Shown here piece after piece: positions 14,085 to 17,844 of a stretch of DNA of 64,000 bases. The stretch's first letter is position 1. Every line of letters begins with the position of its first letter. This DNA comes from Methanosarcina horonobensis HB-1 = JCM 15518 (GTDB lineage Archaea; Halobacteriota; Methanosarcinia; Methanosarcinales; Methanosarcinaceae), in the NCBI RefSeq assembly GCF_000970285.1, contig NZ_CP009516.1, positions 4,877,036 through 4,941,035 of the forward strand, read 5' to 3'. The translations under genes were made by a program, and so were the position numbers. The notes below the pieces were generated by a model. The model was not told the origin of the DNA, ran no database searches, and saw only the letters and a list, made by a program, of their open reading frames with translations.

Positions 14085-15218
14085 TCATTGTGTAAAGGAG
14101 GATGCAGACTCCGTACTTAAGACTCTTGACTTATAGGTGCAGCTAACATCTACGTTTTTTCTGAATTCAAAAACAATCATATGAGGGCTGGAAGAGACCG
14201 TGAACGGATGACCAGTGTACTTGAAAATATTTGAATAGTATAATGCAACACGCTCGCATACCTTACTATCAGAGTAATCGTGAATTAATCTCACACACTC
14301 GCTGCCCTTCTCAGTACAGACTTCGATTTCGGTTCCTATACTGTCAGTAAGGTAAAGTGCTTTGAAAATCATTATATGTTCTGCAAGTGTGAAAGCCTCC
14401 GGGGGTTTGCCCGTAAATAACTCGAATTCTCTTGCCATATCCTCTACTGAAGGAAGACTTCCGGAAACAAAAGCTTCAAAAACTTTTTTATTCATGCTGA
14501 GCCGCTGGTAGTTTTGATCCCTGTAGATTTTGATAAGATTTTTCCAGAATTCCGGTTTTCTCTGGATCTCCTTGAAAGTGCTCTCCATTGGTCCGAAGTA
14601 TTCCTCAAGTCCTTTAGGGACTTTTTCGTAGTCAAGAAATTCAAACCTTTTAAAATAAACTTTAGTCACATTTGACTTGCTGAACAGGCCCTGTATGTCA
14701 AGCTTCATATGTTTTGCCAGAAAGAGGGAAAGGCTATGGGCAATTACTCCCCTGAAGCAGGGATTGCCATTTGAAAGGGTCAGGATTAAAGATTCTGGTT
14801 CCGGGCTTCCAGCGAATTCTGCGTCTACTTTAATTTTCCAGCCCAGTCTGTCATTCAGCGCGTTTACATAATTAATAAAATCAGGAATTCTTTTAATAGT
14901 ATACGGGTTTATTAATTCGTATACATTCGACTCTTCAATAAGCAGGCCAGAAGTTTTCTTAATAAACCACTCAAGCATGGTATGATGGATAAGCAGAAAT
15001 TCTTCTTCTTCAATCAGTTTATTGCGAGACTCCGCATTTTTTAAAGCCTGACTTGAGTTTTTTTCTCCGTTTTCATTCTTCTTTCCTTCGATAACTTCAG
15101 AGGCAGTTTCGATAGAGTCCCTTATCGCTGCACTTAAATTTCCATTATTTTTGTCCAGAAAGGGCTTTAATTTATCTATGTAACATTGGTCAATCGAGAT
15201 GTTTTTTCGAACTATCAA
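14085..15218 (-). CDS. RHH-like regulator paralogue 1 (uncharacterised Methanosarcina family)
   Basis: A 377-residue protein from a TTG start at 15218, chosen because gagg lies about eight bases upstream and because all three tandem paralogues begin at the same RKN motif. The first 40 residues (VRKNISIDQCYIDKLKPF, NNGNLSAAIRDSIE) look like a ribbon-helix-helix DNA-binding domain. A linker rich in Glu/Asn/Lys follows, then a second domain that is well conserved among the copies: WKIKVDAEF, SLSLFLAKHMKLD, STFKEIQRKPEFWKNL, YQRLSMNKKVFEAF and LIHDYSDSKVCERV. No catalytic motif is visible. Domain 2 may be a sensor. Function unknown. Confidence 0.72.
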   Translation of the reverse strand: MIVRKNISIDQCYIDKLKPFLDKNNGNLSAAIRDSIETASEVIEGKKNENGEKNSSQALKNAESRNKLIEEEEFLLIHHTMLEWFIKKTSGLLIEESNVYELINPYTIKRIPDFINYVNALNDRLGWKIKVDAEFAGSPEPESLILTLSNGNPCFRGVIAHSLSLFLAKHMKLDIQGLFSKSNVTKVYFKRFEFLDYEKVPKGLEEYFGPMESTFKEIQRKPEFWKNLIKIYRDQNYQRLSMNKKVFEAFVSGSLPSVEDMAREFELFTGKPPEAFTLAEHIMIFKALYLTDSIGTEIEVCTEKGSECVRLIHDYSDSKVCERVALYYSNIFKYTGHPFTVSSSPHMIVFEFRKNVDVSCTYKSRVLSTESASSFTQ

Positions 15219-15567: not shown

Positions 15568-16617
15568 TTAACATCCGTCCGTAAATTCCATAATGATAAG
15601 ATTTGATACGGTCCTGACCTCAAATGTATAACCTGCTGCCTTGAATATTTTTGAAACAAAATCTATAAGTTTCGTAATCGCAGTTTCTTCAGAAAATTGA
15701 TGCCGAATTTTTATATTCATCTTTCCTCCCTCAACTGTTCTTTCAATATCATTGGCAAGCTGGGTAACAAAAGCCAATTTTTTGCAAATGGCAAGCAGTT
15801 CGTAAAAAGGAATTTCCTGAATAGGCTTACCTGCAGATGCTTCAAAAAAACTTGTTACATCAGGAATCTCCCCCGAGAGAAGGGATTCAAATACATCCCT
15901 GTTAAGGTTTATCCGCTCATATCTCTGTAACCTGTATCTTTCTACTAGAGAGGTCCAGAAATCAGGCTTGCTTCTAATTTCTTTAAAAGTATAGTCAAGA
16001 GTTCCAAAGTTCTTTCTAATCCCGGGAGGAACATCCATATCGGATTTATGGTCCTTAAGAAAGATACGAATCGAATTAGATTTCCGATGGACAAAAGGAA
16101 CATCAAGGTTTAGATAGCGGCCGAGGAAGATAGAGACCGCTTCAGCAAGATATGCTCTCAAACTGGGATCCCCGTTTTCGATTACTATCACCTCGGACTT
16201 ATCCTCCTAGGTGCTGGCGTAAACTTCAATACCCCAGCCCATGTTCAGACTGCGCTTATTGAGATACTCAATGAGGTTTGAAACACTCCTTATTTTGTAC
16301 GGATTGAAAATTTCACTTACAAGTTCATCGTCTACCAGTATTCCATCAGTGTTTTCAATAAGCCACCTGAATGATAACTGGCTGATTAATATGCATTCTC
16401 CGCTCTCGATCAGGCTATTACGAATCTCAGGATACTTTGTTGAGCCCTGTGTAAGGTATTCCATGGCGTCTTCTACGGACTCATGACCCTGAAGAGCAGC
16501 ATCTGCAAGCTCTATTGCATCCCTTATTGCAGCACTCAGGTTCCCATTATTTTTGTCCAGGAAGGGCTGCAATTTCTGAAGGTATTCATCTTCCATAGAA
16601 ACGTTTTTGCGAATCAA
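15568..16617 (-). CDS. RHH-like paralogue 2 with an in-frame UAG (possible pyrrolysine codon)
   Basis: From TTG 16617 to TAA 15568 is one continuous frame of 349 sense codons interrupted only by TAG at 16209-16207 (codon 137). Before it lies the RHH-like domain (IRKNVSMEDEYLQKL, GNLSAAIRDAIE) and GWGIEVYAST. After it, EDKSEVIVIENGD and the full second domain continue in the same frame and match paralogues 1 and 3. The TAG aligns with a lysine codon (AAA) of paralogue 3 in LSSAKES. Methanosarcina can decode UAG as pyrrolysine, so readthrough to a full-length protein is plausible. Alternatives are a recent nonsense mutation, or reinitiation at GTG 16191, since aggagg overlaps the TAG 11 bases before it. 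Confidence 0.7.
16207..16209 (-). other. In-frame amber (TAG) codon, candidate pyrrolysine site
   Basis: The codon context on the minus strand is ACC TAG GAG GAT AAG. Reading continues open for 213 codons to a TAA stop. One base change (AAG to TAG) from a lysine codon would produce it, and the aligned residue in the sister gene at 16738-17844 is lysine. Confidence 0.6.
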
Positions 16618-16737: not shown

Positions 16738-17844
16738 TTAAAAATCCAGATCCGAAGAGACTTTTACAGCATCCTGCAATGAAGTCTCAGGAAGTGAAAA
16801 ATCAAAAATTATAAGCCCTGACACGTAAGTTACACTGAATCTGTGCAGGCCAGCCTCAAATAAATTGGAAAACAGCTGGATAAGTTTTAACACTACACAT
16901 TCATCAGAGTAATCGTGTCTGATTTTGATGTACTCTTTCCCTTTCTCAGCGAATATCTCAACATCGCTCACAAGCTGTGAGGCAACTACAAGGTATTTAA
17001 AGAGGGGAAGCAATTCCGAAAGAGGGATTTCACGAAGAGGGCGATCAGCTTTAATTTCAAAATATTTTGTGATATCAGGTAATTTTCCTGCCAACAAAGC
17101 TTCAAAAAGATTCTTGTCCAAATTTACCCTTTGATAGTTGAATTTTGTATAGAGTTCGGCAAGCGTTACCCAGAAAGCAGGTTTTCTCTCAATTTCCCTA
17201 TATAGGAGGTCTTTAGAACCAAAGTGTTTCCTGACTCCAGGAGTTATATCCTGTATGTCATGCCGGGCAGAATGCCTCAGGTATACGGTAATTGAGTTGG
17301 ACTTTCTGTGAAGTGCTTCTGCGTCCAGGCCCATCCAGCATGAGAGGAAAATACAGACAGTTTTTACGAACAACTCGCGAAGGTCCCTGTCTCCCCCAAT
17401 AAAATCTATAGTTGCATCCTCATTTTGAAAGCTTTCTTTAGCAGAACTCAGGACTTCAATTTTCCAGCCCATTAGTCTACTGGTGTTGTTCAGGTGCTCT
17501 TCCAGCTCAGATATGGTGGTGATCAGATAAGGGTTTATAAGTCCATGGACAATATCTTTATCAATAAGCTTACCAGCACTGCTTCTCATAAGCCACTTCA
17601 TCATCTGTTGATTTATCATTACATATTCTCCGCTCCTGAGAAACTGTTCCCTTATTTCAGGCAAACTTTCCTTTCTTTTCAGGCTTTCAGCGGTCTCTTT
17701 TAGAGTTTCATGGCTTTCAGGGCAGAGGCTAAACAGGTCGATTACTTCCCTTATTGCTGCACTTAAATTTCCTCCATTCTTTTCCAGCAGAGGCTGGAGT
17801 TTCTGGAGGTGAACTTCATCTAAAGAAACGTTTTTGCGAATCAA
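16738..17844 (-). CDS. RHH-like regulator paralogue 3
   Basis: A 368-residue protein from a TTG start at 17844. The ATG at 17898 is in frame but adds 18 residues absent from the sister proteins. Residues 1-45 (IRKNVSLDEVHLQKLQPL, GNLSAAIREVIDL) form the RHH-like domain. The region YVMINQQMMKWLMRSSAG follows and then the family domain: GWKIEVLSSAKES, CIFLSCWMGLD, RKSNSITVYLRH, YREIERKPAFWVTLAELY, YQRVNLDKNLFEALLAG and IKIRHDYSDECVVLKLI. The C-terminal strand LIIFDFSL closes the fold. It is the most upstream gene of the three, 120 bp from paralogue 2, so the set may be transcribed together. Function unknown. Confidence 0.75.
   Translation of the reverse strand: MIRKNVSLDEVHLQKLQPLLEKNGGNLSAAIREVIDLFSLCPESHETLKETAESLKRKESLPEIREQFLRSGEYVMINQQMMKWLMRSSAGKLIDKDIVHGLINPYLITTISELEEHLNNTSRLMGWKIEVLSSAKESFQNEDATIDFIGGDRDLRELFVKTVCIFLSCWMGLDAEALHRKSNSITVYLRHSARHDIQDITPGVRKHFGSKDLLYREIERKPAFWVTLAELYTKFNYQRVNLDKNLFEALLAGKLPDITKYFEIKADRPLREIPLSELLPLFKYLVVASQLVSDVEIFAEKGKEYIKIRHDYSDECVVLKLIQLFSNLFEAGLHRFSVTYVSGLIIFDFSLPETSLQDAVKVSSDLDF

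Follow-up and report, generated by a model that had tools for sequence, protein, structure and literature searches.

An in-frame UAG at codon 137 of a putative regulatory gene of Methanosarcina horonobensis is likely decoded as pyrrolysine (Pyl), so that a full-length protein would be made beside a truncated one. This reading is the best supported of those considered, since the same codon is TAG in two species, selection downstream of it is not relaxed, the host encodes a complete Pyl cassette and Thg1 offers a precedent with an identical Trp-to-UAG change. An earlier note on this DNA had proposed read-through with Pyl at a site where a sister protein has lysine. The read-through part of that proposal has gained ground; the lysine part has not, as orthologues carry Trp at what appears to be a variable turn.

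Candidate Pyl genes without a role in methylamine metabolism rarely have the backing of more than one species. Close relatives differ at this site, some with TAG, some with TGG and some with yet other codons, which provides a natural experiment on how UAG enters and persists in a conserved gene. If confirmed, this case would support the view that UAG is a partly free sense codon in Methanosarcina, and would imply that genes of this type may be wrongly annotated by pipelines, either as pseudogenes or as two separate genes.

The Amber-Interrupted Gene and Its Locus

The stretch of DNA analysed, hereafter the window, comprises 64,000 nucleotides (G000:C1:4877036-4941035) of the M. horonobensis genome (G000), a single contig of 5.02 Mb. 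The amber-interrupted gene is one of three tandem paralogues, a fourth copy being found elsewhere in the genome. Its minus-strand frame, from TTG (16617) to TAA (15568-15570), contains 350 codons including the final stop and is broken by the TAG alone, as the earlier note had described. That note was also right in stating that the stretch following the TAG is open and conserved, but its length is 212 sense codons and not 213 (Table 1).

Table 1. Features of the amber-interrupted gene and its neighbours (positions in the window).
Feature	Position	Strand	Description
Whole unit	15568..16617	-	TTG start; 349 residues with TAG as sense; TAA stop; aligned to 14 orthologues
Upstream part	16207..16617	-	136 codons + TAG; possibly RHH-like N-terminus, helices, first strand of predicted beta-hairpin
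In-frame TAG, codon 137	16207..16209	-	Codon alignment: TGG in G008 (presumably M. mazei) and G025, TAG in DH2
Downstream part	15568..16206	-	212 sense codons + TAA; purifying selection by omega
AGGAGG, Shine-Dalgarno-like, overlapping the TAG	16203..16208	-	Encodes (x)-Glu-(Glu)-Asp in the family
GTG, candidate reinitiation start	16189..16191	-	GTA in DH2
Upstream paralogue	16738..17844	-	44% identical, uninterrupted; sequence comparison
Downstream paralogue	14085..15218	-	37% identical, uninterrupted; sequence comparison

Searching the gene against Pfam and NCBIfam profiles revealed no family above cut-off, RHH included. Below threshold, RHH_5 matched residues 110-124 (E 0.017), which are not N-terminal, and NCBIfam aCcr1 weakly matched residues 8-37 (E 0.098). 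Judged by eye, the pattern of residues 3-42 is suggestive of an RHH-like N-terminus, and a regulatory role of the gene is plausible. Sequence searches retrieved no homologue of known structure, and an internal duplication of the helix-strand unit found no support in the sequence. As regards an H-NOX/V4R/TRAPP-like fold, the Foldseek hits obtained with the low-confidence structural model (overall pLDDT 64) include H-NOX (E 3e-3, TM at most 0.37), ranked behind designed proteins, and carry little information. In this model, codon 137 is predicted to lie between the strands of a beta-hairpin (residues 130-136 and 142-148), a region where the local pLDDT is about 75-84.

Codon 137 Across Methanosarcina

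Among 31 Methanosarcina genomes, sampled at one per species, 14 proved to contain a close orthologue set among the same neighbouring genes. An in-frame stop interrupts two of these, in M. horonobensis and in Methanosarcina sp. DH2 (G020), whose proteins are 84% identical; in both it is a TAG and in both it occupies codon 137. Sequencing error or a lone lesion is ruled out by the identical TAG in the independent DH2 assembly. Both flanks of the TAG align, with neither stop nor frameshift, to the 12 uninterrupted orthologues. In UBA10923 (G025) and in G008, which we take to be M. mazei as its PylS matches that of M. mazei at 454 of 454 residues, codon 137 is TGG in a gapless alignment, with the same adjoining one-codon deletion. 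The remaining orthologues have TGG, TTG, CGG, TGT or TCC. M. acetivorans (G001) and M. mazei, both used in a 2013 survey, carry sense codons at this site. When the search was extended to the order, 111 genomes gave a match, and no further TAG-bearing full-length member was present among the matches listed.

This alignment of orthologues, which the earlier note had put forward as a check, therefore gives TAG twice and otherwise Trp, Leu, Arg, Cys or Ser, Lys being present in none of the sense orthologues. By alignment and structure prediction, codon 137 is a Trp position, one G-to-A transition from TAG, inside a variable turn. The Lys that had been pointed out in the upstream paralogue does exist, but it is poorly aligned: its column is occupied by K, R, G, H or N depending on the species and adjoins an indel. 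Pyl as an analogue of a conserved lysine was consequently rejected, orthologues carrying Trp and other residues.

Decayed or interrupted copies of the family were also encountered in the genus (G014:C3:53823-54942 and G019:C94:3713-4579), the G014 copy with mixed TAG, TAA and TGA stops.

Selection on Both Sides of the TAG

The silent-site divergence of the two TAG species is large (dS about 0.7-0.9). Compared pairwise, M. horonobensis and DH2 have a dN/dS of 0.14 in the downstream part (dS 0.69) and of 0.067 in the upstream part (dS 0.87). Branch omegas were obtained with a codon model written for this analysis. For the downstream part, omega was 0.191 on the two TAG branches vs. 0.196 on the background, and omega = 1 was rejected (2dlnL 56); these values span entire terminal branches, so that with a recent and separate origin of the TAG in the two species, some of the selection would be older than the TAG. 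Taken singly, the TAG lineages gave 0.15 for M. horonobensis (2dlnL 38) and 0.25 for DH2 (2dlnL 19). Upstream, omega was 0.10 on the TAG branches vs. 0.13 on the background.

The sequence following the TAG is thus still protected by selection. The earlier note had suggested measuring dN/dS there, and had named extra lesions as a finding that would speak against read-through: the measured value (0.19) is unrelaxed relative to the background (0.20) with neutrality rejected, and neither species has a second stop or a frameshift in the 212 codons. As a counterpoint, low dN/dS downstream of in-frame stops has been reported as a general phenomenon in prokaryotes (PMC7918605).

UAG Usage and the Decoding Machinery

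In the window, UAG terminates one of the 45 open frames of at least 150 codons, and in 400 kb of the M. horonobensis genome 3.3% of them, which bears out the rarity of this stop assumed in the earlier note. Across four species, it ends 2.5-4.6% of long frames. Junctions at which a single stop separates more than 100 codons on each side number 15 in the window (11 TGA, 2 TAA and 2 TAG), so two abutting open stretches are in themselves no rarity. The other TAG junction (33428) was dropped, being antisense to moaA. Judging from the aligned sequences, the coding-frame conservation around the codon-137 TAG is not a product of chance. Interruptions were surveyed in 400-kb stretches of four genomes (M. 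horonobensis and three relatives), with a restriction to the longest, likely coding, frame; this filter is coarse, and unfiltered versions were swamped by conserved non-coding frames. In the 400 kb of M. horonobensis, the codon-137 TAG is the only stop breaking a coding-frame gene that is sense in a relative, and over the four stretches it is the only such stop common to two species.

Both TAG species possess a tRNA-Pyl gene with a CUA anticodon, a PylS homologue and an in-frame TAG in mtmB, M. horonobensis having two such mtmB genes. In the latter species, the tRNA-Pyl gene is followed by what we take, from gene order, length and sequence, to be pylS, pylB, pylC and pylD. The UAG-decoding apparatus on which the earlier note had relied is accordingly encoded in this genome.

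History of the Codon

A tree of six flanking genes has the topology (DH2,(M. horonobensis,(M. mazei,UBA10923))), supported at 97-100%, and rejects DH2 and M. horonobensis as sisters (p-AU 0.0006). On this tree, TAG and TGG would have been swapped at least twice in the clade sharing the one-codon deletion, TAG having arisen twice or having once reverted. Either history, i.e., 1) one origin followed by reversion to TGG or 2) two origins, implies that the gene was working when the codon switched, and provided that the flanking-gene tree holds, codon 137 behaves as a sense codon. With the tree of the orthologues alone, which is too weak to decide, a single TAG origin stays compatible (p-AU 0.34), as does recombination.

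A Model for Decoding and Its Alternatives

A likely scenario is that a TGG (Trp) codon mutated to TAG in a functional gene and is now decoded by tRNA-Pyl. Release factor would compete with Pyl-tRNA at UAG 137, termination leading to a 136-residue N-terminal fragment and Pyl insertion to the full 349-residue protein, with Pyl137 placed in the turn of the predicted beta-hairpin. In M. acetivorans, read-through of an amber codon placed in a reporter gene amounts to 20-30%, and a special element (PYLIS) is unnecessary (PMC2933860). As relatives accept Trp, Leu, Arg, Cys or Ser in the turn, the change from Trp to Pyl would probably be near-neutral for folding. An orthologous Trp and a variable site suggest that Pyl137 is probably a tolerated Trp replacement rather than a functional lysine analogue. 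Earlier surveys had anticipated that UAG would enter genes neutrally (PMC3639795, PMC4153887). It seems improbable that the UAG serves as a sensor, the ratio of fragment to full-length protein tracking the Pyl-tRNA supply and Pyl137 being possibly active too; were this so, a putative DNA-binding protein would be tied to methylamine metabolism in the two TAG species.

Alternatively, the gene may have undergone fission, with the UAG ending an N-terminal protein and a coupled GTG start, aided by the AGGAGG, making a second one with which it assembles. Both elements are present in M. horonobensis (AGGAGG at 16208-16203 and GTG at 16191), as the earlier note had objected against its own proposal: the AGGAGG does overlap the TAG and the GTG does follow 11 nt on, but reinitiation is weakened by the replacement of this GTG by GTA in DH2. 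A GTG does occur in DH2 as well, two codons downstream of that position, yet it is located 17 nt past the AGGAGG, and starting there would cost half of the following strand. Although the conservation of both halves is equally what two reinitiation products would display, the AGGAGG is ordinary coding sequence for EED, also found in the TAG-less M. acetivorans and G010, and both candidate starts fall inside the predicted beta-hairpin, which a break at the TAG would cut in two; this constitutes moderate evidence (local pLDDT about 75-84, overall 64). Fission would moreover have to have happened twice at this codon, or else the M. mazei branch would have had to regain TGG, and we regard it as unlikely.

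In a gene that is being lost, the TAG would be a nonsense mutation followed by an untranslated remnant. Such loss could be tolerable in the presence of two flanking paralogues and a fourth copy, and decayed copies of the family are known in the genus (G014, with mixed stops). Such copies look different, however: here, 212 codons persist in both species with no second stop or frameshift, omega (0.19) indicates no relaxation and the same codon is affected in two species, all of which makes a pseudogene very unlikely. Read-through could also be ensured by a near-cognate elongator tRNA instead of tRNA-Pyl, since read-through of in-frame stops has been inferred in prokaryotes lacking Pyl (PMC7918605). 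With a dedicated UAG-decoding tRNA-Pyl gene in both species as the simplest decoder, this appears extremely improbable.

Comparison With Known Pyrrolysine-Containing Proteins

Three of the features by which Pyl-decoded genes are recognized were found here: the host has tRNA-Pyl, PylRS and PylBCD, a single UAG is flanked by sequences under selection, and the same codon is involved in more than one species. The closest parallel to decoding of UAG 137 as Pyl is Thg1, the tRNA-His guanylyltransferase of M. acetivorans, likewise a non-methylamine gene with an in-frame TAG where relatives have Trp. Its sequence in M. acetivorans (L066) is NFVAS-TAG-GYYALR, while M. horonobensis and DH2 have NFV[VA]SWGYYALR, with Trp at the TAG position. 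In Thg1, Pyl has been physically observed and is dispensable for activity (PMC2933860). The Thg1 TAG occurs in one species with Pyl observed, whereas the codon-137 TAG occurs in two species and its decoding as Pyl is deduced; if confirmed, Trp-to-Pyl exchange through TGG-to-TAG mutation would be a recurrent route.

Similarly, the TetR-family protein MA2902 is a putative regulator with a TAG in two Methanosarcina (M. acetivorans and M. barkeri) and is unproven as a Pyl protein (PMC1914089), but it belongs to a different family, as told from annotation. In Ca. Methanomethylophilus alvus, the genes of putative Pyl proteins also have sporadic TAGs absent from homologues, and suppression was said to stabilise such mutations (PMC4153887); that organism is from a different order, and its TAG stops are rarer (1.6%).

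The methyltransferases MtmB, MtbB and MttB of the same organisms have an in-frame UAG read as Pyl, the mtmB TAG being seen here as well. Unlike their UAG, which is conserved across isozymes and whose Pyl is thought to be catalytic, codon 137 is a variable site with TAG in two of 14 orthologues. The amber-interrupted gene has no Pfam match to methylamine methyltransferases and its UAG is absent from 12 of the 14 orthologues, which excludes it from that group. In DH2, mtmB (G020:C26:449276-450623) was matched as two overlapping pieces, which points to either a frameshift or a faulty assembly. The M. horonobensis pylB (L046:7258-8373, plus strand) itself ends with TAG, and read-through would extend it by about 20 residues into an overlap with pylC; this agrees with the TAG-ended pylB that has been described (PMC2933860) in M. 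acetivorans and M. mazei.
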